This document shows, piece by piece, positions 6,591 to 55,253 of a stretch of 64,000 bases of DNA (positions are counted from its first letter, which is position 1; the number at the start of each line of letters is the position of its first letter). Source of the stretch: Acidobacteriota bacterium. GTDB lineage: Bacteria > Acidobacteriota > UBA6911. The notes under the pieces were generated by a model. The model made no database searches. It was given only the letters and a program-made list of their open reading frames with translations, and was not told the origin of the DNA. Made by a program: the position numbers and the translations under genes. The stretch spans positions 1-64,000 of the forward strand of contig JAFGIY010000082.1 in assembly GCA_016929335.1 (NCBI GenBank), in the 5' to 3' direction.

Positions 6591-6839
6591 ATGAACGATT
6601 ATGTTACTTTAAAGATACTTTCCCAAAAGTCCAGTTTGTCAGAGCGGACCTTGCGGAAGTTTATCCGATGCAGAGAGCTTCCGCATTATCGTCCCGATCC
6701 CAAAGGAAAGATCCTTATCCGTTTATCCGATTTTTATGCCTGGATCGAGTCACGTCGAATACAGGTTGAAAAAGATGTGGATGCAAAGGAAATGCTCGAG
6801 CTTTTGTTTGCCTCAGCGCCTGAAAGACAAAGCGCATGA
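6591..6839 (+). CDS. Excisionase-like HTH protein of the older element
   Basis: An 82-residue protein starting with ATG after AAGGAA. The HTH_17-like fold is visible as VTLKILSQKSSLSERTLRKF, a turn, then KGKILIRLSDFYAWIESRR. Its stop overlaps the integrase start (ATGA, 6836-6839), so the two are translationally coupled. The same size, position and 4-bp overlap occur in the excisionase-integrase pair at 53.75-55.18 kb, which supports the assignment. Family members bend attachment-site DNA and direct integrase toward excision. Confidence 0.7.
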   Translation: MNDYVTLKILSQKSSLSERTLRKFIRCRELPHYRPDPKGKILIRLSDFYAWIESRRIQVEKDVDAKEMLELLFASAPERQSA

Positions 6840-8140
6840 CAGTCAAAGTGCGAGAAATGCCGCCGAAGAGCGGCAAATGGTATGTCAAAATTGATTTTCA
6901 TCAGCATCGGATTGCCCGGCTTTTCAGTTCGAAGGAAAGAGCACAGGAAGTCGCCAAGAAGATCGGTGATGCGCTTGAGCTTTATGGGGTGGAAGCACTG
7001 AAAATGTTTAAAAAGCCGGATCCGCCGCCCCCACCGCCACCGGAAATAGTAATTCCAACTGTCGCTGAGTATGCAGCGAAATGGGAACTTGAGCTCGAAA
7101 AGAAGGACCTCAAACATTCAACACGCATCAGCTATAAGTCAAACCTGAAGCATCACATCATTCCCGCATTAGGGAAAGTGCTCATTACTAAAGTGGATTA
7201 TCCACTTTTGAAGAGGTTTGTATGCGCCAAAGCTGAAGCGACATACAGCTCTGCAAGGTTTCGCAAGCCGGCGGACAACTCAAAAGACGAAAAGGATACT
7301 GCAAGCTCGAAGGTCCCTGGGCACAAAAAAACCTATAGCCGTGATTCTGTTCGAATCATGGTGATGACCTTGCGTGCGATGCTGGCAGAAGCGACACGGG
7401 AAAATCTCATACCAAACAATCCTGTAAACGACCTCGCGCCATTCTATCGCAGGCAAAAACGAGAGAGGATTGTGCGAAGAAGCGATGTTTACACGCCGGA
7501 GGAGCTTTATGCGATTGAAGATGTGCTGAGCACCAAGCGTTCGCTCTTTCAGCAGAATGCATACGAATTCAGCTTATGTATGTCACGTACAGGGATGAGA
7601 ATGGGAGAAGCGCGCGGTCTGAAGCCATCGGATCTCGACTTTAACGCTCATACGATAGAGATCCAACGAAATATCCCATCGGGGCACAATCGACTGGAAG
7701 AAAGCACAAAAGGCAAAATCGGGCATCGAACGGTGGATATGGGAAAGGATCTCCACCTTGCAGTGAAAGCGATAGAGCTTCAGAGAAAGGTAGAGAAGCT
7801 GAAAACCGGAACGGAAGATTCCTCCGCCTGGCTTTTCCATGGCGCTGAAGGTGGGCCAATGGATTACAACAAATTTTACGATGACTGGATGCGTGCGCAG
7901 AAGATTGCGGGAATCCGGCCTCGGACGCCCCATTCGCTGAGGCATACCTATGCTTCAATCAACCTGGCAAATGGGGAGGATTTGGCTTATGTCCAGAAGC
8001 AACTCGGGCATGCCAATCCTGCCATCACCCTGGCGATCTATACGCACTTCATGCCACGCAAGCGGAGGAGAATATCGAATGCCCTGGACAGACCAACCGG
8101 GGTTGCTAAGCGGAAAAATCCGCAAGTAATCCGCAAGTAA
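6836..8140 (+). CDS. int: Tyrosine recombinase / phage integrase (older element)
   Basis: A 434-residue site-specific recombinase. The N-terminal MTVKVREMPPKSGKWYVKID is an AP2-like arm-binding domain, then a Pro-rich linker (PPPPPPP at about residue 62), a SAM-like core-binding domain (PTVAEYAAKWELEL...) and the catalytic domain. The Arg box is GMRMGEARGL, the HxxR box HSLRHTYAS, followed by QLGHANPAITLAIYTHF with the nucleophilic Tyr. All catalytic residues are present. It resembles the integrase at 53980-55176 in N-terminus, layout and tRNA-proximal position. It may still act on the shared att core. Confidence 0.93.
   Translation: MTVKVREMPPKSGKWYVKIDFHQHRIARLFSSKERAQEVAKKIGDALELYGVEALKMFKKPDPPPPPPPEIVIPTVAEYAAKWELELEKKDLKHSTRISYKSNLKHHIIPALGKVLITKVDYPLLKRFVCAKAEATYSSARFRKPADNSKDEKDTASSKVPGHKKTYSRDSVRIMVMTLRAMLAEATRENLIPNNPVNDLAPFYRRQKRERIVRRSDVYTPEELYAIEDVLSTKRSLFQQNAYEFSLCMSRTGMRMGEARGLKPSDLDFNAHTIEIQRNIPSGHNRLEESTKGKIGHRTVDMGKDLHLAVKAIELQRKVEKLKTGTEDSSAWLFHGAEGGPMDYNKFYDDWMRAQKIAGIRPRTPHSLRHTYASINLANGEDLAYVQKQLGHANPAITLAIYTHFMPRKRRRISNALDRPTGVAKRKNPQVIRK
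8118..8139 (+). repeat. Two 11-bp direct repeats at integrase 3' end (possible arm sites)
   Basis: ATCCGCAAGTA occurs twice head-to-tail, overlapping the last codons of the older integrase. Short direct repeats near an att core are typical integrase arm-type sites. The assignment is inferred from position. Confidence 0.4.
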
Positions 8141-8195: not shown

Positions 8196-8241
8196 TGGAG
8201 CCAGCGCCCGGACTTGAACCGGGGACCTACTGATTACGAAT
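8196..8241. repeat. Left attachment-site copy (3' part of tRNA-Thr)
   Basis: 46 bp identical to 55178-55223, comprising the CCA end, T-arm and 3' half of the anticodon arm of tRNA-Thr. Sequence diverges immediately outside on both sides. The 5' half of a tRNA is absent here, so this is an att core and not a tRNA gene. Confidence 0.93.
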
Positions 8242-8324
8242 TGCTTGCGCCCTCTCGTTACCCTCTATAATCAAAGAATTTAGCATTTTGCATCTCACAT
8301 TAAGCCTCTTTATGAGGTTTTAGG

Positions 8325-13991: not shown

Positions 13992-14519
13992 ATGACAGGT
14001 AGTCAGCGTGCATACGCCAAACATCGGAGAGCGGTCGGTCTTGCCGGCGGAACGCTTTCCGCTGTACAGAAAGCAATCGCTTCAGGCCGCATAACCAAAG
14101 GGTCCGATGGGAAAATAGATTTCGAACGGGCGGATCGAGAATGGGAAGAAAATCTCAATCACCGAAAGCGCCCAATTCAGCGGTTTGATCAAGCCGAGCA
14201 GGTGGTCACCGATGCTCATTCTGATGGAATCCCAACAGATAGTTTTTTTGAGGCCCAGCGGCAACATGAATGGATTAAAGTACAAAAAGAGGAATTGGAG
14301 CTTCGAAAACGGCGCGGTGAATTATGGGAGAAATCTGAGGTTGAAGAAGAATGGGGGAAACTTCTCACGACGTTTTGTAACCGAATTATGGGGATGGTTG
14401 ACAAATTGGCTCCACGCGTCGCTGCCAATTCGGATGTTCACGAATGTCGTTCAATTATAGAACGCGAAGTAAAGGAAGCGTTATTAGCATTGAATGGATA
14501 TCGATCTAATGCGGCATGA
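13992..14519 (+). CDS. terS: Terminase small subunit (Nu1-like)
   Basis: About 175 residues from the ATG at 13992; an in-frame GTG is two codons earlier. The N-terminus SQRAYAKHRRAVGLAGGTLSAVQKAI is a HTH of the lambda Nu1/DUF1441 kind, followed by KIDFERADREW, which closes the winged helix. A long charged helix (VQKEELELRKRRGELWEKSEVEEEW) gives oligomerisation. It ends overlapping the large subunit start (ATGA, 14516-14519), the normal terS-terL order. It recognises packaging sites on phage DNA. Confidence 0.88.
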   Translation: MTGSQRAYAKHRRAVGLAGGTLSAVQKAIASGRITKGSDGKIDFERADREWEENLNHRKRPIQRFDQAEQVVTDAHSDGIPTDSFFEAQRQHEWIKVQKEELELRKRRGELWEKSEVEEEWGKLLTTFCNRIMGMVDKLAPRVAANSDVHECRSIIEREVKEALLALNGYRSNAA

Positions 14520-16492
14520 GCCAGATTGCAAAATCATTAGAATTGTTGTGTCGTTCTTGCGTATCACCACCACCGGATTTGACAGTCTCTCAGTGGGCAG
14601 ACCAATACAGATATCTGAGCTCGGAATCGGCAGCGGAGCACGGCAAATGGTCAACGCTTCCCTTTCAACGAGAACCGCTGGATTCCGTTTCGGATCCGTG
14701 TGTTTATCGGACCGTTATTCGGGCAGCAACGCAGATGCTCAAAACGGTGACAATCGAAAACGGGATCGGCTACTTTGCCCATCAGGATCCCGGTCCGATC
14801 TTGGTACTGCAGCCCCGGGATGCGGACGCCAAGGCCTTTTCCAAAGAGCGGATCGCGCCGATGATCCGCGATACGCCGGTTTTGAAAAACATATTCGCGG
14901 AGAGCAAGGGCCGAACTTCCAACAGCACGATCGAAGAGAAGCTGTTTCGCGGGGGAATGCTGGCAATCACGTCAGCCGGATCCCCGGGCAACCTGGCCAG
15001 GCGGGCAATTCGGTTTTTATTCGCGGACGAAGTGGACAAATATCCTCCAACGGCTGGCTCCGAAGGAAATCCGATTTCCCTAGCCCGGAAGAGGCTCGCG
15101 ACATTCCGACATCGGAAAAAGGAAATCCTGACATGTTCGCCGACCCTTCCGGGATCGGAGATCGACCGGGCTTACGAAGCTTCCGACAAGCGGGAGTATT
15201 ACGTTCCCTGTCCTGCATGCGGACATATGCAGAGCATGATGCTCAAGTTTTATACCCAGGTGCGCTGGGATTCGAAGCTTTCCTCTCGAGAGGAGCAGGC
15301 GCGGTCCGCGAGGTATCACTGTGAGAATCCGGATTGCAGTGCGGCCTGGGATGACGCGGCGCGATGGAAAGCGGTGGAACTGGGCGAGTGGCGGGCAAGC
15401 CGGCCATTTAACGGTATAGCAGGATTCTGGATCAGCGAGCTTTACAGCCCATGGAAACAGCTATCGGAAATTGTATTGGATTATCTGAGCAAGAAGGACA
15501 GCGCCGAAGATCTCAAGACATTCGTCAACACCAGCATGGCGGAGAACTGGATCGAGAAGGGCGAGGCGCCCGAATGGGAGATGCTACTTTCGCGCAGGGA
15601 GGATTATCAACCCGGGACCGTTCCTCGAGGGGGACTATTTCTGACGTCAGGCGTCGACGTCCATCCGGATCGCCTCGAGGCGGAGGTAGTTGCCTGGGGA
15701 CGCGGCCGGGAGTCCTGGTCTGTCGACTACCAGATTTTCGAGGGCAAGACATCAGAACCGGAAGTCTGGAAGAAGTTGGAAGCATTGAGGTCGCAGACAT
15801 ACAGGACGGAGAGCGGAGCCGAGATCCCTATTTCCCGTATGTTTGTGGATTCCGGAGATCAGACACAGGATGTCTATAACTGGGTGCGCACTCAGCCCTC
15901 AAGCCAGGTCCAGGCGATTAAGGGATCCGATAAAGGGATCCTGCCAGTTGGACAGCCGACTCCCGTGGAGGTTACGGTTGGAGGCCGGAAGATTAAAGCC
16001 GGTGTCAAAATCAAGATCATCAATGTCTCGTTTTTCAAATCCGATCTGTATGCCAATCTTAAATCCCGCCGGCCAACGGAGGAAGAGCTTGAGCAGGGCT
16101 ATACGTTTCCTCCGGGTTATTGTCACTTTCCTACGGGAAAAAACTATGGTGACGAGCATTTTAAGCAGCTATGCGCCGAGCAGCTCGTCAGCCATAGAAA
16201 CCGGAGATCCGGCCGGACCAAACAGGAATGGCAGCAGACCAGGCCCCGCAATGAAGCACTCGACTGCAGGATCTATGCTCGAGCAGCAGCCTGGGATAAA
16301 GGATTAGACAGGATGCAGGAAAGGCATTTCCGATCAATGGAAGACCAATTAAAAATAGCTCATCCTGCAGCTGCGCAATCTGAACAGCAGTCACAAGCCC
16401 AGCCGGAGAATGCTCAGCCTGGTTTACGGATGGATGAAATTCGGAATCAGGGCTACTTCAGGGGCAGAAACAAAAACTGGTTTAATCGATAA
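14516..16492 (+). CDS. terL: Terminase large subunit, lambda GpA family
   Basis: A 658-residue packaging motor ATPase/nuclease. Visible parts: DLTVSQWADQYRYL opening typical of GpA; Walker A-like RAATQMLKT (69-77); Walker B FLFADEVD (167-174) with catalytic Glu; coupling segment LTCSPTLPGSEI; a zinc-binding set CPAC (232-235) and CENPDC (269-274); and the nuclease domain from about residue 370 starting with TSGVDVHPD, with a second acidic cluster at FVDSGDQ. Length matches GpA (about 640). A GpA terminase implies concatemer cutting at cos-like sites. It overlaps both neighbours. Confidence 0.96.
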   Translation: MSQIAKSLELLCRSCVSPPPDLTVSQWADQYRYLSSESAAEHGKWSTLPFQREPLDSVSDPCVYRTVIRAATQMLKTVTIENGIGYFAHQDPGPILVLQPRDADAKAFSKERIAPMIRDTPVLKNIFAESKGRTSNSTIEEKLFRGGMLAITSAGSPGNLARRAIRFLFADEVDKYPPTAGSEGNPISLARKRLATFRHRKKEILTCSPTLPGSEIDRAYEASDKREYYVPCPACGHMQSMMLKFYTQVRWDSKLSSREEQARSARYHCENPDCSAAWDDAARWKAVELGEWRASRPFNGIAGFWISELYSPWKQLSEIVLDYLSKKDSAEDLKTFVNTSMAENWIEKGEAPEWEMLLSRREDYQPGTVPRGGLFLTSGVDVHPDRLEAEVVAWGRGRESWSVDYQIFEGKTSEPEVWKKLEALRSQTYRTESGAEIPISRMFVDSGDQTQDVYNWVRTQPSSQVQAIKGSDKGILPVGQPTPVEVTVGGRKIKAGVKIKIINVSFFKSDLYANLKSRRPTEEELEQGYTFPPGYCHFPTGKNYGDEHFKQLCAEQLVSHRNRRSGRTKQEWQQTRPRNEALDCRIYARAAAWDKGLDRMQERHFRSMEDQLKIAHPAAAQSEQQSQAQPENAQPGLRMDEIRNQGYFRGRNKNWFNR

Positions 16493-16692
16493 TGTCCTGG
16501 ACAACCACAGATCTGACAGCGATCGAAAGCGCGATCGCGAGCGGTGAGTTGCGCGTTAAATTCGCGGACCGCGAAGTGCAATATCGATCTATTGAAGAGT
16601 TGCTCAAGGCCCGCGATGTAATAAAAGCTGCCATTGATCCCACTATTTCGGCTTCCACCCGCTGTACATATGCGAGTTTTAGCAAGGACTAA
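16492..16692 (+). CDS. Head-tail joining protein, gpW-like
   Basis: A 66-residue protein starting in the terL stop region. DLTAIESAIASGELRVKFADREVQYRSIEELLKARD is the gpW/short head-joining pattern: a helix, a beta hairpin (VKFADREVQYRS), and a second helix. In lambda-type phages gpW sits between terminase and portal genes and adds to the head before tail attachment, as the gene order here shows. Confidence 0.85.
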   Translation: MSWTTTDLTAIESAIASGELRVKFADREVQYRSIEELLKARDVIKAAIDPTISASTRCTYASFSKD

Positions 16693-18180
16693 ATGAACTG
16701 GCTCGATAAAGCGATCGACTGGATTTCTCCCCAGTTAGGCCTGAAGCGTACTCGAGCACGTGCCATTGCCAAAGCCATATTGGCCTACGATGGCGTGCGC
16801 TCTGATCGCAGGATGGGCAGCTGGAATACCACGGGCGCCTCCGGGAACTCCGAAATAGGATCCGCGAATTCCAAACTGCGTTATAACGCTCGCGATCTCT
16901 GCCGGAATAATGCCTACGCAAGAAAGGCAAAGCGGGAATGGGCAAAACGCGTGGTCGGGACCGGAATCACACCAAGGCCCAGCACGGGAAATGAGACCCT
17001 CGATAAAACCATTCTGGAATACTGGAATAAATGGACGCGCCAGTGCTGCTCCGATAGCCGGATCAATTTCTATGCTGCCGAGAAGATGATTGTTCAGAGC
17101 TGCTACGAATCCGGCGAAGTGCTGGTCCGCTTGTGGAATCGCCGACCGGATGATGACCTCGCTGTGCCGTTTCAGATCCAGGTGCTGGAATCGGATTACC
17201 TGGATATGGATAAAACCAAGACTATGGATAACGGATATATCATCCATGGAATTGAGTTTGATCCCATTGGGCGGATCCGCGGATATTGGCTCTACGGCCA
17301 GCATCCTGGAGAAGTGACGCAGACATCCTGGCGGCGATCGCTTGCAAGTAAATTCATCCCGGCATCAGATGTACTGCACCATGCTGAGCTCGACCGGCCC
17401 GGAGACGTGAGAGCCGTAACACGATTTGCCGCGGTGATCGCAAAGCTCCGGGATTTGGATGAATATGCAGATGCGGAAATAGTCCGGAAGAAAATTGAGG
17501 CTTGCCTGACGGCAATGGTCACCCAACCGGAAGGGGCGGAGGGCCCAACTCTTGGCAGCGCCGCAGTGGACTCTACGGGAGCAAAGGTCGAAGAATTCCG
17601 TCCCGGCATGATTATGTATGGAGCCGCAGGAGCGGGCGTCGAATTTTTCAGCCCAACATCATCCGGAGATTACGCTGCTCATAAAAAATCAGAGCTCCGG
17701 GAAGTGGCCGTTGGCCTTGATATCCCCTATGTTGTCCTGGATGACAACCTGGAAGCGGTTAATTATTCAAGTTACCGCGGAGGCCTGCTGTCCTTCCGCG
17801 ATGCCATTGAGGAATACCGCTGGAACTGGCTTATCCCTCAAGTCCTGGATCCGATTTATTGCCGATTCATCGAGACTCTGTTTTTGATGGATGTCATCCC
17901 TGAAGCCAATTACACGGTGCAATGGGATCCGCCACAGTTTGATCTGCTGGACCGCGAAGCAGAAGCAGAAGCGGATGAAATTGAGCTCCGCATTGGGAAA
18001 ACCACATATCCGCAGCTGGTAGCCAGGTCGGGTTATGACGCTGACGAACAGATCGCAGAGATTGAGAAGTACAAGCCAATGCTGGATGCCGCCGGCATAA
18101 GCTTTTCCGGCACTTCTAAAAAAGCAGCTGCAGAAAAACAAGGAGAAAACAGCGATGCCAACGCAACGCCAGAGCAATAA
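16693..18180 (+). CDS. Portal protein, lambda (GpB) family
   Basis: A 495-residue portal. It starts MNWLDKAIDWISPQLGLKR and has the clip/wing sequence ARDLCRNNAYARKAKREWAKRVVGTGITPRP, characteristic of lambda-family portals. The middle has QIQVLESDYLD and HGIEFDPIGRIRGYWLY, and the stem/crown part NYSSYRGGLLSFRDAIEEYR. The ring of 12 at one capsid vertex lets DNA pass and binds terminase and neck proteins. The last 26 bp overlap the protease-capsid gene. Confidence 0.95.
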   Translation: MNWLDKAIDWISPQLGLKRTRARAIAKAILAYDGVRSDRRMGSWNTTGASGNSEIGSANSKLRYNARDLCRNNAYARKAKREWAKRVVGTGITPRPSTGNETLDKTILEYWNKWTRQCCSDSRINFYAAEKMIVQSCYESGEVLVRLWNRRPDDDLAVPFQIQVLESDYLDMDKTKTMDNGYIIHGIEFDPIGRIRGYWLYGQHPGEVTQTSWRRSLASKFIPASDVLHHAELDRPGDVRAVTRFAAVIAKLRDLDEYADAEIVRKKIEACLTAMVTQPEGAEGPTLGSAAVDSTGAKVEEFRPGMIMYGAAGAGVEFFSPTSSGDYAAHKKSELREVAVGLDIPYVVLDDNLEAVNYSSYRGGLLSFRDAIEEYRWNWLIPQVLDPIYCRFIETLFLMDVIPEANYTVQWDPPQFDLLDREAEAEADEIELRIGKTTYPQLVARSGYDADEQIAEIEKYKPMLDAAGISFSGTSKKAAAEKQGENSDANATPEQ

Positions 18181-20092
18181 AGAACTGCGCCCGATGATGA
18201 AGGGGCGCGAGTATCTCGCAGGACAGGAGATCACATCCGTCGATTCCGAAAATAGGACCGTAGATATCATATTCTTTAGTGGCATCGATGTGCCGCGCAC
18301 CGACTGGTGGACCGGGCAAAAATATGTACTGAGATTTGATTCCAAAGGCGGCGACTTTTCTCTCCTGAATGCCGGAGCTCCGGTACTCGATAATCATCCG
18401 TGGAACGCCAACAGCTCGGCGCAAAAGGGAAAAGTTGAGAAGGCCTGGCAAGAAGGCAAGCTGTCAAAAGCTACCTTGCGATTTTCAAAGCGTCCCAGTG
18501 TGGATGAAATCTGGCAGGACATCGAAGACAAGATCATCACCAAATTTTCAATGGGCGTCTCGATTCTTGCTGAGGAAAAATTCGTCGAGAACAACATGGA
18601 GATCCGACTCGCTAAAAAGTGGCAGCCGTTTGAGCTGAGCATCGCGCCCATACCGGCTGATTTTGGAACAACAACACTGGCCGCAGAACAAAGCGACCTT
18701 AACCAAATGGGCACATGCCCAGAGGAGAATAAAATGCCTGACAACGTACCGGGCACTGGTGCCCAGACATTATCAGCTATTCCTTCCACCCCTCCCGTTG
18801 ATGAAGAGGCGCTCCGGCGCCAGGCGATCGAGACCGAGCGCAAACGCATCGCCGACATACGGGAAATCGCGCTCAAGCATGGCATGGAGGAATCCATGGT
18901 CAAACTGCATATCGAAAAAGGCACATCTGTAGCCGATTTCAAATCCGAAGTGCTGAATGCTCTTGCTGTTCGACACGATGCACAGCCGGCCACAAAAACA
19001 CAGCATATCGATCTGGTTGCGGACGAGTGCGCAAAACGGCGCGACGCGATGGAGCTTGCCTTGGATGGAATGTTTGATCCGAAGCAGAAGAAAGAGGACA
19101 ACGGCAATCCCTTCCTGGGACTGAGCCTGCTGCGATTTGCCGAGGAATCCGTTCGGCTGCAGCATGGCCTGGTGCGGATCCCGAACAAAGATGAGGTGGT
19201 CAAGTTGGCGATGCAAAACACCTCTGACTTCGCCAACGTTCTTGAAAACAGCGCGCGCAAGCAGCTGCTCCGACAGTATGAGCTTGCGCCTACGACTTAT
19301 AAGGTCTGGACGAAGCCCAGCACCACGCCGGATTTCAAAACCATGAGCCGGTCTCGCCTCTCTGAAGCTCCAAGACTTATTGCTGTCGGCGAAGGTGCGC
19401 AGATCACCATCGCAGCAATGAGCGACAGCAAGGAGCAGTATGCTGTCATTACGGCAGGTCGAGGGGTATCCTTCACGCGGCAAATGCTCATCAACGATGA
19501 TCTTGGTGCTTTCAACAACCTGATCAGTCAGATGGGACTCCAGGCCGGCATTTATGAAAACAAGACTGTTTACGCCATTTTGGCCGCCAACGCCAACATG
19601 GCCGACGGCAATCCCCTGTTTGATGATACGCATCATCACAATGCGGGCGCCGGAGCTCTCGGCAACACAGGCTTCGACACCATGTATACCAAGATGCGCG
19701 GGCAGAAGGGCCTTGATGGAGTGACGGTTCTCAACATTATCCCCAAGTACATCATTGTCCCGGCAGCCAAGGAAACAACCGCGCGAATGGCTCTCGTGAC
19801 TACTGGCGATAATGTGAAGGCTTCTGATCGTAACTACTTCGCCGGCCGACTGGAACCTGTTTCTGATGCCGAGCTGGATAATAACGGCAGCGGCACAACC
19901 AAATGGTACGGCGCCGCCGATCCCGACATCTACCCCGGCATTGAATACGCGCACCTGGAGGGCTCTGAAGGGCCGCAGTTTATCCGCAAGGAAAATGAAA
20001 GCGGAGTCCTCGGGATTCAGTTCTACGTATACACCGACTTTGGGGCAAAAGCCGTCGATTGGAGACCGCTGTATTATTCAACCGGCTCCTAA
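18155..20092 (+). CDS. Prohead protease-major capsid protein fusion
   Basis: A single 645-residue frame with AGGAG 10 nt before its ATG. Residues about 1-170 are a U35/S78-type prohead protease (EYLAGQEITSVDSENRTVDIIFFSG..., APVLDNHPW with the candidate catalytic His, ITKFSMGVSI with the candidate Ser). A low-complexity linker follows (about 180-215), then a helical delta-like segment and an HK97-fold capsid from about residue 350 (FKTMSRSRLSEAPRLI...GRGVSFTRQMLINDDLGAFNNL...GNPLFDDTHHHN). The protease probably cuts itself free during maturation. Fusion genes of this type are known in some prophages; most phages keep them separate. Confidence 0.9.
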   Translation: MPTQRQSNKELRPMMKGREYLAGQEITSVDSENRTVDIIFFSGIDVPRTDWWTGQKYVLRFDSKGGDFSLLNAGAPVLDNHPWNANSSAQKGKVEKAWQEGKLSKATLRFSKRPSVDEIWQDIEDKIITKFSMGVSILAEEKFVENNMEIRLAKKWQPFELSIAPIPADFGTTTLAAEQSDLNQMGTCPEENKMPDNVPGTGAQTLSAIPSTPPVDEEALRRQAIETERKRIADIREIALKHGMEESMVKLHIEKGTSVADFKSEVLNALAVRHDAQPATKTQHIDLVADECAKRRDAMELALDGMFDPKQKKEDNGNPFLGLSLLRFAEESVRLQHGLVRIPNKDEVVKLAMQNTSDFANVLENSARKQLLRQYELAPTTYKVWTKPSTTPDFKTMSRSRLSEAPRLIAVGEGAQITIAAMSDSKEQYAVITAGRGVSFTRQMLINDDLGAFNNLISQMGLQAGIYENKTVYAILAANANMADGNPLFDDTHHHNAGAGALGNTGFDTMYTKMRGQKGLDGVTVLNIIPKYIIVPAAKETTARMALVTTGDNVKASDRNYFAGRLEPVSDAELDNNGSGTTKWYGAADPDIYPGIEYAHLEGSEGPQFIRKENESGVLGIQFYVYTDFGAKAVDWRPLYYSTGS

Positions 20093-20556: not shown

Positions 20557-20874
20557 TTGACGGTCGATTTTAGCCGAATCAACGCAGCTGACTTGAGGAA
20601 GTTTGGGGGAAGCTATGCCCTCACCCGAATCAATTCCGGAACGGGATCTCTGGCATTTACCGGGATCCCGGATTCCGGCCCCGAAGAGGAAGATGTTGCG
20701 CCAGGCGATGGCAGCACCTACTTATATCTCTGGGCTAATGCTTCCGATTTCTCGCCACGCCCGGCGCGCGGTGATGAAATTTCAACGGCCACGACGGTCT
20801 ATAAGATTGTCGACCTGCAGGAGGACCCGGCGGGAGGCTTATTGCTGAAGCTCCGCTATGATCGGGATGTCTGA
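20557..20874 (+). CDS. Head closure / head-tail connector protein
   Basis: A 105-residue protein with a TTG start and AAGGA 8 nt upstream. The C-terminal RGDEISTATTVYKIVDLQEDPAGGLLLKLR is the small beta-barrel pattern of gpFII/HK97-gp7-like connectors. It lies between decoration and neck genes, ending 1 bp into the next start. It probably plugs the portal after packaging and offers the tail-docking surface. Confidence 0.65.
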   Translation: MTVDFSRINAADLRKFGGSYALTRINSGTGSLAFTGIPDSGPEEEDVAPGDGSTYLYLWANASDFSPRPARGDEISTATTVYKIVDLQEDPAGGLLLKLRYDRDV

Positions 20875-21368
20875 TGGCCAGAGCGGTCAATATCTACGTC
20901 AAAAAGCAGCTCCGGCTGGATCTGCTCAATGTGCCGCAGCGCGCGATGTACGACATAGGCAATGCGGCGCTCGGCGCGATTCGGAGGCGCGTAGCTCGCG
21001 CTTATGATGCCGATGACCGGCCGGCGGAACCCCTGAAATCACGCAGCTGGAAGCATATCAAGAAACACAAGGGTTTGAAGCCCGTCCGCGACCTGCACGG
21101 CACTGGAATGATGTGGCCGGAAAACTACAAAGGCGGGAAGCGCAAACCGCGGCTCAAATTCGTCGGCCACCTGATGGACCAGATCGCTGTGCGCAGGGTC
21201 AGCGACAACCAGGCATTTATTACTGAACCATCGACGCGCGCTGGGCGGCTCAAGGCGCGCCGGCATAAAGCCATGCTGCTATTTTCGCCCAGCGATCGCG
21301 CAATCATCATGCGTTACGCGAAGGTAATCCTTAGCCGAATCACAGCAAAACTGATCCGGGCAGCATAA
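20874..21368 (+). CDS. Neck / tail-completion-like protein
   Basis: A 164-residue, very basic protein (GAIRRRVARAYDADDRPAEPLKSRSWKHIKKHKGLK...). It sits where HK97-gp10/lambda-gpZ-type tail completion proteins lie, after head closure and before the tail terminator. No signature is decisive. It overlaps the upstream gene by one base (ATG after TCTG). Confidence 0.5.
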   Translation: MARAVNIYVKKQLRLDLLNVPQRAMYDIGNAALGAIRRRVARAYDADDRPAEPLKSRSWKHIKKHKGLKPVRDLHGTGMMWPENYKGGKRKPRLKFVGHLMDQIAVRRVSDNQAFITEPSTRAGRLKARRHKAMLLFSPSDRAIIMRYAKVILSRITAKLIRAA

Positions 21369-21373
21369 CAATA

Positions 21374-21847
21374 ATGATCAATCCATCCGAAATCGTCGAC
21401 AACCTGGTCGATCTGCTGAGGGATATCCCGGACCTTGTGCAGCTCATGGATGGGGATCCGGACCGTATCTATGCCTATCATGACTGCTATCCTGAGAAAA
21501 CCAGTCTCGAGGAAGCAAAAGAGAGAATGAAATCTCCCGGAATTATGGTCGCCTGGACAGGAACCTATCCAGGCAGCTTTGGCGGCGAGGCATGGAAGCA
21601 TCAGATATCCATCACGCTTCGGGCCCAGGTGGAATCCAGCTATGAGCCGGTCTCGAGCTACTACGCAATATTCCGTCAAATCGTAAAAGGAATGCCCAGT
21701 AGTCTGAATGGTGTGCCGTTAATCATCGCCACTGTTCACCCGTCCTGCAACCTGATGGACACGCCAACCATTGAGCGCCAGGCTGACGCGGCCGGCGTGG
21801 ACTATTTTGAAATAACAACAGCTTTTACAGAAATCGGAGACGACTAA
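21374..21847 (+). CDS. Tail terminator-like protein
   Basis: A 157-residue protein with an N-terminal helix (PSEIVDNLVDLLRDI) and strands HQISITLRAQVES and AAGVDYFEITTAFTE, the usual alpha-beta layout of gpU-type tail terminators. It precedes the tube protein by 1 bp. Terminators cap the tube at the required length and dock it to the head. Position is the main support. Confidence 0.6.
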   Translation: MINPSEIVDNLVDLLRDIPDLVQLMDGDPDRIYAYHDCYPEKTSLEEAKERMKSPGIMVAWTGTYPGSFGGEAWKHQISITLRAQVESSYEPVSSYYAIFRQIVKGMPSSLNGVPLIIATVHPSCNLMDTPTIERQADAAGVDYFEITTAFTEIGDD

Positions 21848-21848
21848 A

Positions 21849-22889
21849 ATGCCAGCCAATATAAGAGAATTGCTTATCGGCTTTGGAAAATGCAAGCAGA
21901 CCAATCTTGCCACAGCCAACACGCTGGCCGGCATTTGGCGCTTGGGCAAGCTTAATACCAGCATTACAGGACCAAAACTGAATACGGAAAACGATGCCCC
22001 GGAACTCGGCAAAGGACATGAGTTTGCGACTCAGGTGTTCAAAACATCCTGGGATGTGCAAGGACAGATTGAGAAATATCTCAGCTCGGATTTCGCCGCG
22101 TGGGCAATGGCCTTTGGTCTGGGCAAGGTGGTGAAAACGGGAACCTCTCCAAATTTCACCTATACCTGCACCCCGCTCCCGGCAACTGACGGGATTGAAC
22201 TTCCGTCATTCAGCTATATCGAAGCGATGCGCCAGGGCGCCAGCGATATTTTCGACAGGATGGCTGTTGGATGCGTGGTCGATGGATGGACGCTGAATGT
22301 CAGCAGCGGCCCGGGTCGGGCGAACAGCAAACTGGTGGTGGATATTGTGGGATCCGGGAAAATGACCGAGCCCTCCGGAATCACACTTCCTGCAGCTACA
22401 GCCGAGAAACTGCTTCCCGGAGCTTCAGTGACTGCCACGATTAACGGTATAGATTATGTCACCGCAAAAAATCTGGTGTCTCTGGAGGCGAGATGGAGAA
22501 ACAATCACCGCCTCGATTCTGGATTTTACCCGGGATCCGGATTTCAGTCGGTCGGCGATGCTACTTCCGGCGCCATCCGCGGCCGGATGGAAATCGGCGA
22601 TCGGGAATGCGCGCTAAGTTTTATCGCCCGCTTTGAGAACGGCTCGACAGAATTGACCAAGCTGCAAGCGCTCACCGAGGGAACGGGTGTTATCACTCTC
22701 ACCTATGACACCAATAACAGCCTGTCTCTGACATTCCAGCGCATTATTTTTGCGGTTGCAGAGCTGGGCGAAACGGATGGGATCGTAACGGTTCAGGTCA
22801 CCTGCCAGCCTCTATGGCATAACACCAATGGCATTCTGACGGCGGTTTGCGAATGCAACACCGACGGGATCGCCCAGGCGGAATCCTAA
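21849..22889 (+). CDS. Major tail tube protein
   Basis: A 346-residue beta-rich protein between the terminator and the tail chaperones. Features include FATQVFKTSWDVQGQIEKYLSSDFAAWAMAFGLG and GWTLNVSSGPGRANSKLVVDIVGSGK, typical of phage tube proteins that alternate strands with loops. The C-terminus (TVQVTCQPLWHNTNGILTAVCE) is a final strand pair. It would form stacked hexamers around the tape measure. Confidence 0.75.
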   Translation: MPANIRELLIGFGKCKQTNLATANTLAGIWRLGKLNTSITGPKLNTENDAPELGKGHEFATQVFKTSWDVQGQIEKYLSSDFAAWAMAFGLGKVVKTGTSPNFTYTCTPLPATDGIELPSFSYIEAMRQGASDIFDRMAVGCVVDGWTLNVSSGPGRANSKLVVDIVGSGKMTEPSGITLPAATAEKLLPGASVTATINGIDYVTAKNLVSLEARWRNNHRLDSGFYPGSGFQSVGDATSGAIRGRMEIGDRECALSFIARFENGSTELTKLQALTEGTGVITLTYDTNNSLSLTFQRIIFAVAELGETDGIVTVQVTCQPLWHNTNGILTAVCECNTDGIAQAES

Positions 22890-22894
22890 CTTAT

Positions 22895-22969
22895 CGCGGC
22901 GTAGAGCAGCGGCAGCTCGTTGGGCCCATAACCCAAAGGTCCCAGGTTCGAGTCCTGGCGCCGCTACCA
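22895..22969 (+). tRNA. tRNA-fMet(CAT), initiator type, inside the tail operon
   Basis: A full cloverleaf of 75 nt with encoded CCA: acceptor CGCGGCG / CGCCGCT, D-arm GAGC/GCTC with a 7-nt loop, anticodon arm TTGGG CCCATAA CCCAA, variable AGGTC, T-arm CCAGG TTCGAGT CCTGG. Three initiator hallmarks are present: no pair at 1-72 (C1, U72), A11-U24, and three G-C pairs at 29-31/39-41. The D-loop is 2 nt shorter than in E. coli initiator tRNA. It lies between tube and tail chaperone genes, so it is transcribed with virion genes. Confidence 0.9.
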
Positions 22970-22979
22970 AATATTCAAA

Positions 22980-23006
22980 GGCTCGGATTCCTCTCCGGGC
23001 CTTTTT
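22980..23006 (+). terminator. Rho-independent terminator after the tRNA
   Basis: GGCTCGGA, loop TTCCTC, TCCGGGCC with one G-T pair, then TTTTT. It starts 10 nt after the CCA end and could both end the tube-tRNA transcript and set the tRNA 3' processing end. Confidence 0.85.
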
Positions 23007-23024
23007 CATTTTGAAAGGATCTAT

Positions 23025-23657
23025 ATGGATGAAACAACAAAGGAGGCCCCAGTTTTATTTGATGCAAATAAGCCGATCACTTTAAAGACATTTGGGCTTT
23101 CAGGAATAAAGCCCATCACGCTTCGCTTTCCTTCCGATGATGAATGGCTTGAGCGCGCCAGCCGGCGCAAGACCATTATCGAATTCACTCCAACCGGAGA
23201 CAGCATTTCAACCGTATTAGAACCGGATGAGGAGGAAATCGAGCTGCTAAAAAATCTCGCGATAGATGCCCTTCCCGAAGAAATTGATGCACATGAAGCC
23301 GGCAGGCTGATTGATCAGCTGGAATTCACACTGCATGAAAATCCCGGCGAGGTAATACAGGGGGATCAGCTGCATATTATCCTCCGGGTTCCCGGAGCTG
23401 TTACAACCCATAAATTCCGCATGCCTTCATCGAAAGAACTCAATAACTATGACAGGAAGCTCCATGATCAGCAGCCCTATGGGAAGAAAAAAATTTCATC
23501 TGTTCGTAATCTGCCCTTTTTACGCGATCTTTACGGCAAAATGATCCTGGAGTCTTCTGGCTATTCGGGAGGGACGCCTATCATCCACCAGGCGGATGCA
23601 TTGTTTCTGGCATTCATCAATCTCAAGCAGGAAATCGATTCGACAAAAAACTTCTAG
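23025..23657 (+). CDS. Tail assembly chaperone (gpG-like), upstream frame
   Basis: A 210-residue protein preceding the tape measure. The start has GAAAGGA 8 nt before ATG. It contains FGLSGIKPITLRFPSDDEWLERA and a C-terminal helix HQADALFLAFINLKQEI. The gene ends ACA AAA AAC TTC TAG, so the slippery heptamer A AAA AAC lies just before the stop. In siphoviruses this gene and the next make a short product (G) and a frameshifted G-T fusion that coats the tape measure during assembly. Confidence 0.8.
   Translation: MDETTKEAPVLFDANKPITLKTFGLSGIKPITLRFPSDDEWLERASRRKTIIEFTPTGDSISTVLEPDEEEIELLKNLAIDALPEEIDAHEAGRLIDQLEFTLHENPGEVIQGDQLHIILRVPGAVTTHKFRMPSSKELNNYDRKLHDQQPYGKKKISSVRNLPFLRDLYGKMILESSGYSGGTPIIHQADALFLAFINLKQEIDSTKNF
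23645..23651 (+). promoter_or_regulatory. Programmed -1 frameshift site (A AAA AAC)
   Basis: The zero-frame codons are AAA AAC, preceded by A, the standard X XXY YYZ pattern. A -1 slip carries ribosomes past the TAG at 23655 into a frame that stays open to 23992. Just downstream, CCGGGGTGGCCGG and further CCGG copies could form a stimulatory hairpin. Confidence 0.85.
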
Positions 23658-23992
23658 AGCCGGGGTGGCCGGAAAAACCGTCGCTCCGGTTTCTCGTGCA
23701 ACAGGAACTCCGACGGGATGAGCTTTGCGATATTGCCCTTTGTCATGATTCGCCAGGCCCCGGGATCCGCTGCCGGCATTGCCCTCTGACAAAGCTCGAC
23801 CTGGCTCATCATTCGGCTGTCGGTCGGATCCTCCAGCGCGCGTTGAATAAACGCGCATTAATGAATGCCGGAATAGCGTTGAGCATCGAGGATATAGGGG
23901 CTGATGAAATGTACGCACTGCTGATTATCGAGGAAGAGCAGAAGCTTTTCGAAGAAGAAAGATCAAAACACAATGGGCAGCAGCAAATTTGA
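23651..23992 (+). CDS. Tail assembly chaperone, -1 frame extension (gpT-like)
   Basis: The frame reached by the -1 slip: it opens LLEPGWPEKPSLRFLVQQEL and runs to 23992, about 113 residues, with a His/Cys-rich part (CHDSPGPGIRCRHCPL). The only independent start is a GTG at 23696 without a convincing ribosome binding site, so translation as a fusion with the upstream protein is more likely. The extension in lambda-like phages recruits tube protein to the chaperone-coated tape measure. Its end overlaps the tape measure gene by 20 bp. Confidence 0.8.
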   Translation, partial: LLEPGWPEKPSLRFLVQQELRRDELCDIALCHDSPGPGIRCRHCPLTKLDLAHHSAVGRILQRALNKRALMNAGIALSIEDIGADEMYALLIIEEEQKLFEEERSKHNGQQQI

Positions 23993-26480
23993 ACTCGTAA
24001 TTCTGGTTGATCCCACCAAGGCCAACCAGTCCATAAAGAGCGTCAATACCAGTATTCTCGGACTGGAACGTCAGGCAGCAGCCTCCTCTGGCGGGATGGC
24101 AAAGGTATGGGAGAAATCTGCCGCGGATGCCGCGAGAGCTACGCATGGCACCAGACGGGCAATGAGGGAAGCCGCGGATGCTGCAGAATTGCTCGGGGCC
24201 CAAATAGGCCTCCGCCTTCCAAGAGAAGTGAGAAAGTTTATCGGCGAGACCAAATTGCTGGGCGCAGCCCTATCCACGGCTTTTAAATTCTCAATTTATA
24301 TTGCTGCTGCGATGACTCTTATAGATTGGATCAAAAATATCGGCGAAAAGCTGGGCTGGTGGGGAGACAAAGCGGAGGAGACGGCCAGGAAAAATGATGA
24401 GCTGACGAGATCAGTGCAGGAACAAAACAGGACGCTTGATGATTACTACACCAATCTGGAGCGCATGCAGCGTGAGCGCGCACTGATCGGCTTATCCGGA
24501 TCTGCAAAAGGCGCGATCGAAGTCAGATATTCTGCTGAGGATGTCAGGAAAGCGAGAGCTGACGTCGAAACATTTCAAGCCAGGGTAAATAAATTAACCC
24601 TGGAGCTGGGAAGAACACAAAAGAGTCGCGTGAAAGGTGGAGCTCCAGAGCTTACCCCGGAATACATTGCAAAAAGCCAGGAGGTAGCCAAAGCAGAAGA
24701 GGCGTTGCTTTCCGCCAGTATGGCGTACGGTGTGACCAGAGAGGCTTATTTATCCAAACAAGCCGAACTCCGGCAGATCCAAAAGGAAGAAGCGGAAAAA
24801 AGCGCGAAAGAAGAAAAGGCGCGTCAAAAAAAGGCGGATGAAGAGTGGCTGCAAGCTCAGGTTGATTTATTCCGGCGCAGATCCGAAACAGAAGCAGCGG
24901 AGCGGGATTTCGCGATCAAGCTTGAGCGAGACGTAAATAAGACCCTGGCCGAAATGAATCAGGCGCAGATGTCCGAGGATGAGCGTCGGTGGAAGGAATA
25001 CTGGGAAAAAAGAAAAGAGGCCGTCCGGGACCTGGCGCGTGAAAATGAAAACATGGTTCTTTCCCAGAGGAGAGCTGCGAAGGACTATCTGGGAGTTCAG
25101 TCGATCGAGTTGCAGCGGCTCGATGAAATGAAAAAGCTGTATGAAGACAACGCCGAAGCAATCGCGCTGATCGAGGAACGAAAAAAGCTGGTTATTATGG
25201 ATACGAACCAGCAGATTGCCCGGGATGCCCAGGATAAATTCGAAAAATCCGCAAACAGAATCGAACACTTCTTTAATCGGGTTTTCCTGCAGGCGAAATC
25301 TTTCAGTGATGTTTGGAAACAGCTGCTGAGTGAACTGGCCAATTATACCGTCAGCTCCGTAGCCAAAATGGTGGCTGCCTGGACCACGGGAATGGGACGC
25401 ATGAGCCCCGCCGGCGCGGCGCCAGGATATGCCGGCGCCGGTGGAATGCTTGGATCCTTTTTCACAGGCAGCGGTGGCGGAGGGAGCACGGCCGCCGGCG
25501 TGACACCTTCGTTTCTCCCAACATCCTCGGGCGGAGGAGGATTGGGCGGCCTGGTAAACGTCGGCGGGATTAAGGACTTTCTGGGCCTCGGCGGAAAAAT
25601 GGTTACAGCGCCAGGTGGAGCGCTCAATATCCCCTTTGGACAATTGGGCCTCGGCGGCAAGCTCTCCGCCATCGGCAAATCCAATGCAGCTCTGGCAGGC
25701 GGCGCAATGCTGGCCATGATGGGGCTGAAACGTGGTGGTCTCTCTGGATTGGGGATGACTACTGCCGGCGGAGCCATGATAGGCTTCAAATTCGGCGGTG
25801 GCCTTGGTGCCGCGATCGGCGCTGGAATCGGAGCGGTAGCGGGCACGATCCGATTGTTTATGAAGAGCGCTGAAGATAAAGCTAAAGCAAAAGTGAAAGC
25901 CACCTATGGAGTCAATATCCCCGACAAGGGTGTGTTGAGTCAGATTGTTGAAATAGCCCGCCAGGGCTTTGGGGGCAATCTCGATATGGCGGTCCGGAGC
26001 GTCCAGGTGGAGGATCTGGTCCGCCTGTATGCAATGACTACCGGTCAGAGCACTCAGGGGATGAGGGCTCAGATGACCGCCGGAATGCTGATGCAATCCG
26101 GCGGCAGTCTGTATCAGCAAAGGCAGTATGTGAATGGCCTGGCGATCGGATCATCCGGCCGGATCCCGATCTTTCATGCCGGTATTGATTTTGTTCCGCG
26201 CGACATGCTGGCCTATCTGGGTCGCGGAGAACGCGTGACGCCGGCGCACGAAAACGCTCTTCCGGGAGCAGGGCTGGATAGCATCGGCAAGGCCGGCGAA
26301 CTGACTACCATAAATATCACCATTCCCGGCGCCAAAAAATTCTTCCAGGATGAAACCGTGAGCGTGGTGGTCAGAAATCCACAAGCCGTACAGAAGGCGT
26401 CGACACTGGCAAACAGAATCAGCTACAACCGGCGGCAATTGACCGCCCTTCAACTCAGCCCAGGAACGATAACAAGCTAA
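23973..26480 (+). CDS. Tape measure protein
   Basis: An 835-residue protein. A helical N-terminus (LVILVDPTKANQSIKSVNTSILGLERQ) is followed by a membrane-like helix near residue 105-120 (AALSTAFKFSIYIAAAMTLIDWI), a long charged coiled coil (about 140-460), and a Gly/Ala-rich hydrophobic region (about 490-640) with repeated GG and LGG, ending in a globular tail. This is the tape measure pattern; residues span the tail lumen and set its length. At roughly 1.5 Angstrom per residue a tail near 120 nm is expected. Confidence 0.92.
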   Translation: MGSSKFELVILVDPTKANQSIKSVNTSILGLERQAAASSGGMAKVWEKSAADAARATHGTRRAMREAADAAELLGAQIGLRLPREVRKFIGETKLLGAALSTAFKFSIYIAAAMTLIDWIKNIGEKLGWWGDKAEETARKNDELTRSVQEQNRTLDDYYTNLERMQRERALIGLSGSAKGAIEVRYSAEDVRKARADVETFQARVNKLTLELGRTQKSRVKGGAPELTPEYIAKSQEVAKAEEALLSASMAYGVTREAYLSKQAELRQIQKEEAEKSAKEEKARQKKADEEWLQAQVDLFRRRSETEAAERDFAIKLERDVNKTLAEMNQAQMSEDERRWKEYWEKRKEAVRDLARENENMVLSQRRAAKDYLGVQSIELQRLDEMKKLYEDNAEAIALIEERKKLVIMDTNQQIARDAQDKFEKSANRIEHFFNRVFLQAKSFSDVWKQLLSELANYTVSSVAKMVAAWTTGMGRMSPAGAAPGYAGAGGMLGSFFTGSGGGGSTAAGVTPSFLPTSSGGGGLGGLVNVGGIKDFLGLGGKMVTAPGGALNIPFGQLGLGGKLSAIGKSNAALAGGAMLAMMGLKRGGLSGLGMTTAGGAMIGFKFGGGLGAAIGAGIGAVAGTIRLFMKSAEDKAKAKVKATYGVNIPDKGVLSQIVEIARQGFGGNLDMAVRSVQVEDLVRLYAMTTGQSTQGMRAQMTAGMLMQSGGSLYQQRQYVNGLAIGSSGRIPIFHAGIDFVPRDMLAYLGRGERVTPAHENALPGAGLDSIGKAGELTTINITIPGAKKFFQDETVSVVVRNPQAVQKASTLANRISYNRRQLTALQLSPGTITS

Positions 26481-38529: not shown

Positions 38530-39280
38530 GGAAATCCGCATGTATTTCAAGCTTCGGCCTTATATCAAAAATCTAAAGGAGATTATGAAAATGAGACTCT
38601 CAGTGAACATGGTTATCCAGATTCTTATGACTTTGCTGCAGGCTTATAACGCTGTCAGTGACATGCTGCCAGACGATTGGAAAGGTGGAGCTGCGGCTAT
38701 CATGGCAATCATTCAGGCCGTGGTGGCGGCGATTGCGCATTTCAAAAACCCCGATGGCTCATCTGCCAAGGTGGCATACATTCCGCCGCCGAAAACCCCG
38801 AGGGTGAATACGCTTCTCTTTTCAATCTTTTTTCTTGCTGCTCTGGTGCCTCTGGCCGGAGCTCAGGATTCTTCTCAGGGATTCAGCCTCGGAGTAGCAT
38901 ACAACCAAAACGGCGATCCTCAATTTGCCGGCTGGGGCACTTACGATAAACACCTCGGGGCCGGCCTTTATTCCTATAGCGGATATGATGTGCTCCCGTT
39001 GAAGCAGGATGGCAGCAAATTCCCTCAGCTTAAATTCACGCCTTTCACGGGTTTCGCCTATCGAGCTGCAAAACTCGACCGCTTAAGTCTCTTTGCATTC
39101 GGAGCCGGCGGGATATCGACAACCGGCGAAGTCGTTACTGGCGCCGGCAAATATGGAGGCTTCGGTCATTATGATCTTGGCAAAGGATGGGGATTAGTTG
39201 CCGGCGCCGAGGGCAGTTACAGCCCAATAAACGGCACTGATGCAATTATCAGGTTTGGGTTCAGGTATGGGGTGAAATAG
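38522..39280 (+). CDS. Holin-like N-terminus fused to an outer-membrane beta-barrel
   Basis: 252 residues. Residues 1-90 contain two hydrophobic helices (VNMVIQILMTLLQAY and GGAAAIMAIIQAVVAAIAHF) of the small-holin type. From residue 95 a signal-peptide-like stretch appears (VNTLLFSIFFLAALVPLAGAQ), then aromatic-alternating strands ending RFGFRYGVK, an outer-membrane barrel. A GTG at 38804 could start the barrel on its own but has no proper ribosome binding site. It may encode two products or be a real fusion. Its last 128 bp are duplicated at 43827. Confidence 0.6.
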   Translation: MFREIRMYFKLRPYIKNLKEIMKMRLSVNMVIQILMTLLQAYNAVSDMLPDDWKGGAAAIMAIIQAVVAAIAHFKNPDGSSAKVAYIPPPKTPRVNTLLFSIFFLAALVPLAGAQDSSQGFSLGVAYNQNGDPQFAGWGTYDKHLGAGLYSYSGYDVLPLKQDGSKFPQLKFTPFTGFAYRAAKLDRLSLFAFGAGGISTTGEVVTGAGKYGGFGHYDLGKGWGLVAGAEGSYSPINGTDAIIRFGFRYGVK

Positions 39281-43826: not shown

Positions 43827-44000
43827 ATGGAGGCTTCGGTCATTATGATCTCGGCAAAGGATGGGGATTAGTTGCGGGCGCCGAGGGCAGCTACACCCCA
43901 ATAAATGGCACCGACGCGATTGTCAGGTTCGGATTTCGATATGGGATAAGATAAGAATCAATGAGGACACCCTGCTTGTATACCGCTGGGCCTCATAGGC
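43827..44000 (+). pseudogene. Truncated second copy of the barrel-gene 3' end
   Basis: In the frame of the intact gene at 38522-39280 this encodes GGFGHYDLGKGWGLVAGAEG and the closing strand RFGFRYGIR before TAA at 43951-43953; the 5' part of the gene is missing. Substitutions are mostly silent, so it came from a functional homologue and not from a simple recent copy. It marks the right edge of the inserted signalling cassette. Confidence 0.8.
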
Positions 44001-44690: not shown

Positions 44691-45761
44691 TTAGTTATTG
44701 TGTTTTGCCTCTGCCTTCAAATCTCGCAGCAGGCGATCGAACGCTTTCTGATATGAGTCAATATCCTTCCAGTGTGAAAAATCCGGAATGTAGTATTCTC
44801 TGATTTCCCGTGCCGAATCTTTGCCAGTATCGGCATCGAATGCCTTCCATTCTCGGATTCGCTCATATGGAACCAGCGCCACTGGGAATAGCATCTGCTT
44901 TTTTTCACGAGTTTCACGTTGCCGGGCATTTGCTATTTCAGTTTTTACCCATTCGCTGTTCATGCTACTTTCTGAAAGAATCAGCAGCAGCTTATCGTAA
45001 ACCCGGATGGCCTGGTCAATCTGTTCGTGGAGCTTTTGGCCGCCTTGAACATCGTGCGGCGCAAACCAGCACCGGACTCCCTTTGCCTGGAGATCAGCAT
45101 ACAAACGTTCGGCGAATTCCTGGTCCTTTGAGGAATAGCTGATGAAGCAGGAATAGAACTGGATTGCGCCCGCTATCGAGTGAATGTAGCCTATCATGTC
45201 ATCGGGAACGCCAGCGCCTCTGAGGAATTCATCCGGGATCCTACCTTTTGATCGATAGATCGTATCGATACCGATTGTTGAAGGTCCCTGATGATCTAAT
45301 TTGTCTAATCCCCTGGTCATGCTCAAATCGAGATTGGAAAATATGGTATAGGCCAGTTTCGCGCTCACAATATTGGCTTGATCCAGTCTGGTTTGAGAGA
45401 ATCCGACTCCGAAAAGGATCGTTTCGCTCATATTTGCATTGCAAAAGTTTGCATATGAAAGATCCGCCCAACTGAGATTTGCGCGTGGTAGGTACGCACC
45501 ATAAAATGTGGATTTAAACAGATTTGCATGATGGAGGATTGCTGCAGTGAGATCAGATCTAAGAAATATTGCCTGAGCGAGGTCTGATTCGATAAGATCC
45601 GCGTGACTAAGGTTTGCTTCAGCAAAATTCACCAGAGCAAGGTTCGTTGCTCTAAGATCAGCATAGCTTAGATCTGGCGAAATCCCTGGATTATCCTCTC
45701 TCCACTTATTCCAGGCGGCAACTCCCTTTTTCAGGATGGCAAGATGCTTATCATTGGCCAT
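44691..45761 (-). CDS. Pentapeptide-repeat / TIR-domain protein, candidate antiphage NADase
   Basis: 356 residues, AGGGA before ATG. Residues about 30-150 are pentapeptide repeats of the A(D/N)Lxx type (LSYADLRATN, ANLSHADL, LSWADLSYANF), a right-handed beta helix. A linker GLDKLDHQGPSTIGIDTIYRS leads to a TIR domain at about 204-350: FYSCFISYSSKDQEFAERL, WFAPHDV, and SSMNSEWVKTEI with Glu275 as the likely catalytic residue. Bacterial TIR domains degrade NAD+ or make signal nucleotides in abortive infection (Thoeris, Pycsar-like, CBASS). Here it sits in a prophage cargo block with a membrane partner. Confidence 0.85.
   Translation of the reverse strand: MANDKHLAILKKGVAAWNKWREDNPGISPDLSYADLRATNLALVNFAEANLSHADLIESDLAQAIFLRSDLTAAILHHANLFKSTFYGAYLPRANLSWADLSYANFCNANMSETILFGVGFSQTRLDQANIVSAKLAYTIFSNLDLSMTRGLDKLDHQGPSTIGIDTIYRSKGRIPDEFLRGAGVPDDMIGYIHSIAGAIQFYSCFISYSSKDQEFAERLYADLQAKGVRCWFAPHDVQGGQKLHEQIDQAIRVYDKLLLILSESSMNSEWVKTEIANARQRETREKKQMLFPVALVPYERIREWKAFDADTGKDSAREIREYYIPDFSHWKDIDSYQKAFDRLLRDLKAEAKHNN

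Positions 45762-55177: not shown

Positions 55178-55253
<76 letters not shown>

Follow-up and report, generated by a model that had tools for sequence, protein, structure and literature searches.

Bacterial initiator tRNAs are distinguished by a mismatch at position 1:72, an A11-U24 pair, three G-C pairs in the anticodon stem, A73 and the CCA end. Genes for such tRNAs have been described in phages. The phiLM21-like prophages of Sinorhizobium resemble the locus described below, because four of them have a single annotated tRNA-fMet, while a fifth has tRNA-fMet together with tRNA-Met (PMC12429752). A huge phage with fMet tRNAs has been reported (PMC10747093), Shigella phage Sf14 is noted to lack tRNA-fMet (PMC12482277), and a cyanophage is reported to have a tRNA-Ser and a tRNA-Met (PMC6293099), the term "initiator" being found only in the reference list of that paper, as in PMC7824862. 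Initiator tRNA is also a target of toxins: an enteric VapC is reported to cut it between A38 and C39 (PMC4105405), another VapC cutting it has been described (PMC8522696), and phages are stated to generally avoid tRNA-fMet where VapC targets tRNA-fMet (eLife 2023, PMC10264068). The base C33, which is central to the present analysis, is found in eukaryotic initiator tRNAs (PMC9023262); the likeness is in this base, and that case differs in being eukaryotic and having no phage context. In the open-licence papers searched, no report of phage initiator tRNAs with C33 was found.

The window analysed here is the whole stretch of 64,000 nucleotides, and the features used in the following are listed with the evidence for each in brackets.

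8196 to 8248, no strand assigned: left attachment repeat, a partial tRNA-Thr copy (53-nt direct repeat)
14516 to 20092, forward strand: genes for terminase large subunit, portal and fused capsid/protease, upstream of the tRNA on the same strand (PHROGs)
21849 to 22889, forward strand: gene for the tail tube protein, its stop codon lying 5 nt upstream of the tRNA (PF18906, 36.4 bits with a cut-off of 27; PHROG 290)
22895 to 22969, forward strand: initiator-type tRNA gene, anticodon CAU, C33, encoded CCA (ARAGORN, RF00005, initiator covariance model, hallmark bases)
22977 to 23004, forward strand: intrinsic-terminator-like hairpin, 11 pairs, T-rich tail (consensus scan)
23025 to 23657, forward strand: following late gene, its possible role as tail assembly chaperone judged by position only (homologues, 40% and 37% identical, directly after the tube gene in the related viral contigs L439 and L440)
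53980 to 55176, forward strand: integrase at the right prophage end (PF00589)
55178 to 55230, no strand assigned: right attachment repeat inside tRNA-Thr(CGT) at 55178 to 55253, reverse strand (53-nt direct repeat, 94%; tRNA-Thr call)

The prophage is about 47 kb long and lies between the two 53-nt direct repeats, which are 94% identical. The contig is host DNA, as a flanking helicase gene (60681 to 62633) is present in nine of nine same-genus genomes at 68 to 77% identity. The initiator tRNA gene was considered as the attachment site and rejected, since the repeats belong to tRNA-Thr (8196 and 55178) and the initiator gene is located about 15 kb inside the element. A second integrase gene (6836 to 8140, forward strand) is found just outside the left repeat at 8196 to 8248 and suggests two tandem elements at tRNA-Thr.

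The sequence at 22895 to 22969 on the forward strand is a real and intact initiator-type tRNA gene. ARAGORN detected it as tRNA-Met(cat) over exactly this interval and Rfam RF00005 matched positions 22895 to 22966 with 58.4 bits (E 4.9e-10). Reading of the sequence gives C1xU72, which is not a Watson-Crick pair, the purine-pyrimidine pair A11-U24, three consecutive G-C pairs in the anticodon stem (G29-C41, G30-C40 and G31-C39; GGG/CCC), and A73 followed by the encoded CCA. With an initiator covariance model for which 13 initiators from related genomes were used, it scored 82.0 bits and ranked second in its own genome after the host initiator (108.1 bits), followed among other host tRNAs by tRNA-Pro(CGG) with 76.6 and elongator Met with 74.5 bits; because the margin over tRNA-Pro is modest, the classification is based on the diagnostic bases. 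The original prediction of an initiator tRNA from C1xU72, A11-U24 and the three G-C pairs thus holds. An elongator Met or Ile2 tRNA, which the anticodon CAU alone would permit, can practically be dismissed: such tRNAs have a paired 1:72 and a pyrimidine 11 with a purine 24, as in the host elongator Met with C11-G24, while the phage tRNA has C1xU72, A11-U24 and all three G-C pairs and scores 82.0 against 74.5 bits in the initiator model. The anticodon loop is CCCAUAA, and base 33 is therefore C in place of the near-universal U that most bacterial initiators have; this base was absent from the features listed in the original prediction.

A comparison with the host gene, suggested together with the prediction, was carried out on the draft host genome, in which one further initiator gene was found both as a DNA match and as the one match to the U33 pattern (C143:28946-29022, reverse strand; 81% identical). 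The phage and host initiators have in common the anticodon CAU, the 1:72 mismatch, A11-U24 and three G-C pairs, and are identical in the D stem, base 26, the anticodon stem, the variable loop, base 73 and CCA. They differ in base 9, in the T loop and in the acceptor and T stems, the D loop of the phage tRNA is two bases shorter, and the mismatch at 1:72 is kept in both, as CxU in the phage and CxA in the host. C33 in the phage against U33 in the host is the only difference in the whole anticodon arm. Three double changes (6:67, 50:64 and 51:63) preserve pairing, and no stem pair of the phage tRNA is broken except for the initiator mismatch at 1:72; the pairing-preserving changes indicate that the gene kept the structure of a tRNA as it evolved and is neither a chance match nor a decaying copy.

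A recent copy of a cellular gene was also considered and rejected, because identity is 81% with the host gene and reaches no more than 83%, in five genomes, when 40 relatives are searched for cellular matches (32 of the 40 had a match). Some initiators of the same genus (e.g., L033), slightly closer at 83%, have the pairs 50:64 and 51:63 as in the phage tRNA and differ from it on both sides of 49:65. All 19 related initiators fetched and examined have U33. Among the tRNAs then fetched, those nearest to the phage copy were two viral C33 tRNAs (L127 and L073); by another count, the nearest C33 and U33 neighbours were about equally close (8 and 9 differences).

The gene had been placed in a late tail operon, and the surroundings bear this out, with terminase, portal and capsid/protease genes upstream and the tube gene adjoining. 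The more precise placement between tube and tail-chaperone genes stands for the tube side by PF18906 (PHROG 290 names the same gene as a minor tail protein), whereas the chaperone side does not: the gene at 23025 to 23657 had no PHROG or Pfam family match, so its label is a guess from gene order. That the tRNA is followed by its own terminator is in accord with the hairpin of 11 pairs with its T-rich tail, which ends 20 nt before the next gene. Six terminator-like sites were found in 20800 to 24200, against 3.0 (sd 1.8) expected from shuffled sequences, and the one at 22977 to 23004 is the longest; this hairpin could lower expression of the downstream genes. No forward promoter-like site of the sigma-70 type was found in 20800 to 24200, all four sites detected there being on the opposite strand, and the tRNA would therefore depend on late transcription.

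Five terminase relatives with 73 to 78% identity were found in viral contigs, and two of them (L439 and L440) extend into the tail region, with tube genes 74% and 73% identical. Between the matched stretches of the tube gene and the next gene there are 23 and 44 nt in these two, against 135 nt in the present prophage, which leaves no room for a tRNA with a hairpin, and no tRNA was found at this junction in either. Since both share these tail genes but have no tRNA among them, the insertion appears to be lineage-specific; judged from these sequences, the tRNA and terminator form a cassette that was gained in the prophage lineage or lost in the two relatives. ARAGORN found no initiator tRNA in 39 related viral loci, most of them distant or ending short of the tail, and one of them (L442) has a tRNA-His. 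Protein searches with the tube gene against viral contigs and named phages, and with the next gene against viral contigs, were unproductive. The tube gene had weak matches (27 to 30% identity) in two of 296 other genomes of the phylum, and the loci fetched around them contained no tRNA.

Initiator-type tRNAs were searched for in viral contigs, which can include host flanks, with patterns for the initiator anticodon arm, and at least 120 C33 matches and at least 120 U33 matches were obtained. When base 33 was left open in the pattern, it was C in 8, T in 71 and A in 1 of the 80 matches listed, out of at least 120. ARAGORN detected a tRNA at 114 of the 120 C33 sites among the matches listed. For the counts of distinct tRNAs with good pairing, again among the matches listed, 11 C33 and 24 U33 loci with a pairing score below 15 were left out, as were 4 C33 and 3 U33 loci that could not be parsed at contig ends. 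Position 1:72 is unpaired in 69 of 93 C33 and 61 of 83 U33 tRNAs, so that initiator character is common among the viral copies, and 11:24 is A-U in 68/93 and 72/83, respectively. The roughly one quarter of either set that is without the 1:72 mismatch may not be strict initiators or may have been parsed one base off.

Among named phages, the tRNA of the window matched 41 of 50,697 records, 36 of them over most of the tRNA length; two other initiator queries had 157 and 332 matches, of which 152 and 110, respectively, cover most of the query, and the matches need not all be initiators. Twelve of the 41 were fetched, and seven of the twelve have three G-C pairs around CATAA, with C33 in one of these seven, Janthinobacterium phage Donnerlittchen; in PaMx74, G-U takes the place of the third G-C pair. 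In four of the twelve (NTR1, PaMx74, QDWS359 and Donnerlittchen), a gene for a major tail protein or terminase is followed, 90 to 210 nt further on along the same strand, by the tRNA as the next gene annotated or detected. Nocardia phage NTR1 (MF477236) is similar to the present case in that its tRNA is the sole one in the fetched stretch, follows the major tail protein gene and has the three G-C pairs, and it differs in having U33, in being a different phage and in that the tRNA is unannotated in the record. Donnerlittchen (ON529854) likewise has a sole tRNA in the fetched stretch, with C33 and adjoining a late gene, and differs in that the tRNA comes after the terminase gene and has a longer D loop.

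The view that initiator tRNAs are rare in phages is not borne out by these numbers (at least 120 viral matches for each pattern, together with the named-phage copies) or by the prophage tRNA-fMet genes of PMC12429752. Phage initiator-type tRNAs are already known, and what is new here is the recurring C33 variant.

In the 127 proteins encoded next to viral C33 tRNAs, the best 25 of 106 PHROG matches include terminase, capsid and portal, and also integrases and a regulator. The contigs longer than about 20 kb among 67 loci with at most two tRNAs numbered 49, and 21 of them had a recognised terminase. The tRNA was within 5 kb of terminase in 11 of the 21, where 5.7 were expected (P about 0.01, with distance windows chosen after the data had been seen); the counts were 13 against 7.6 within 7 kb, and 3 against 3.7 within 3 kb. 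Proximity of viral C33 tRNAs to terminase is therefore weak and dependent on the window chosen.

Turning to cells, the 297 genomes of the host phylum include 2 with the C33 pattern and 249 with the U33 pattern. One of the two C33 matches is the prophage tRNA itself and the other (G038) was rejected as a tRNA because of a pairing score of 7.5 and no ARAGORN call, so that the same pattern revealed no intact C33 initiator in the 296 other genomes. The comparison of 8/80 viral with 0/296 cellular matches is an unmatched one, because the hosts of the viral contigs span many phyla. Across species genomes, C33 was found in at least 119 stretches, including Weissella, Leuconostoc, Erysipelotrichaceae, Planctomycetota, Patescibacteria, some archaea and others, and 113 of 120 match sites in cellular C33 loci were called tRNA-Met among the matches listed. 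C33 as a trait of phages only was accordingly rejected on the basis of Weissella, Leuconostoc, Planctomycetota and others. Ten C33-carrying genomes, hand-picked from these stretches and including two Phycisphaerales assemblies titled chromosome, were all without a U33 pattern match, though differently shaped initiators could escape the pattern. C33 is thus apparently the sole initiator type in all ten, and for this reason we have not taken U33 as defining for a bacterial initiator and consider C33 compatible with initiation. It is probably tolerated because an initiator need not work in the A site. Apparent sole use of C33 was observed in Phycisphaerales, Weissella and other cells (L342, L348, L312, L339 and others), and some viral C33 tRNAs may belong to phages whose hosts themselves have C33.

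A tree of 173 tRNAs was constructed from about 70 columns with base 33 removed. C33 and U33 are intermixed on it with 48 label changes, which is within the range of shuffled labels (mean 57.9, minimum 45). The tree weakly suggests repeated switching between C and U at base 33; so short a molecule carries little signal.

On balance, we consider it reasonably probable that the cassette provides an initiator tRNA made with the late operon, which adds to or replaces the host initiator during production of virion proteins. A temperate phage would have gained the tRNA with its terminator between the tube gene and the next late gene, and the tRNA would be transcribed by read-through from the late operon and cut out of the late transcript by the usual tRNA enzymes. 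It would then be charged with methionine and formylated, as the 1:72 mismatch and A11-U24 predict, and used in the ribosomal P site, where it may supplement or replace the host initiator while virion proteins are made, to the presumable benefit of the phage. That the close relatives L439 and L440 manage without the tRNA was counted against this reading.

A refinement of it would explain C33 as well: the phage tRNA may be a nuclease-resistant replacement, in which C33 escapes an RNase that cuts or binds the anticodon loop of the host U33 initiator. Replacement of a cleaved host initiator had been among the functions originally proposed, next to a boost of initiation, and C33 offers that proposal a definite point to work from. 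We regard this refinement as tentative and rather unlikely. A difference from the host anticodon loop is indeed present, C33 being the sole change in the arm while the 19 related initiators have U33; C33 recurs in viral initiators (8/80 among the matches listed, against no intact case in 296 other genomes of the phylum) and is intermixed with U33 on the tree; the host genome has 10 PIN-domain genes; and evasion of VapC and similar enzymes has been proposed for phage tRNAs with an altered anticodon loop (PMC10264068), tRNAs that resemble the present one in a loop change relative to the host tRNA. The change here is, however, at base 33 and away from the known cut, the A38/C39 site of the enteric VapC (PMC4105405) is the same in the phage tRNA, and no nuclease requiring U33 is known in this setting. 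PIN domains are common, being present in 10 of 14 control genomes, the 8/80 and 0/296 counts are unmatched with viral contigs spanning hosts of many phyla, and C33 is apparently the native sole type in some bacteria and need not mark escape. The wider proposal, that C33 initiators are a recurrent phage adaptation, namely a P-site-competent stand-in unseen by a host defence RNase requiring U33, appears unlikely to us; if true, it would imply yet-undescribed defence systems aimed at initiator tRNA. C33 could also be neutral drift.

Two further explanations were considered. The tRNA and terminator might act as RNA punctuation, where tRNA excision and the terminator trim the late transcript and set a high ratio of tube to downstream protein, with decoding incidental. 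The arrangement would suit this, as the tRNA begins 5 nt past the tube stop codon and the hairpin leaves 20 nt to the start of the gene that follows, and in NTR1 the major tail protein gene is likewise followed by a single tRNA, whose anticodon stem is of the initiator type; any hairpin or tRNA would do for such a role, yet this tRNA has retained the 1:72 mismatch and A11-U24 through the changes in its stems, and the cassette is missing in the two relatives, so that we consider it improbable. The same absence in close relatives is what would be expected of a neutral passenger, that is, a tRNA gene that recombination brought in and that is intact but of no benefit, and the presence of tRNA-Ser(TGA) in the same prophage points in this direction too. 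To this explanation we likewise give little credence, as the pairing-preserving changes and the stems unbroken except at 1:72 argue for selection at some time.

The supply of an initiator by the phage would matter because translation is started by one tRNA species, and the draft host genome shows a single chromosomal gene for it in the searches made here; a phage that brings this tRNA along could continue virion production even if the host copy has run low or been cleaved. The recurring C33 variant may show how viruses protect protein synthesis. Since the whole anticodon arm is common to both except for base 33, the phage and host pair provides a clean natural test, which can distinguish nuclease resistance from supply as the selected trait and can show to what extent a bacterial initiator can do without U33.

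Several other features of the window were recorded. The tRNA-Ser(TGA) gene of the prophage (51735 to 51820, forward strand) was detected by ARAGORN, is missing from the Rfam scan of the window, and scored 46.4 bits, above the family cut-off, in the search of its own genome. A reverse-strand gene at 44691 to 45761 in the prophage encodes pentapeptide repeats and a TIR domain, also matched by the ThsB TIR model, and is possibly defence cargo, and another reverse-strand gene within the prophage bounds (39965 to 41983) encodes a sensor kinase with PAS domains and a response-regulator domain. A 127-nt direct repeat, 87% identical (39153 to 39279 and 43827 to 43953), flanks a segment of about 4.5 kb where the structural genes end, and two units of 186 nt, 91% identical and arranged in tandem, are located outside the prophage at 59355 to 59726.
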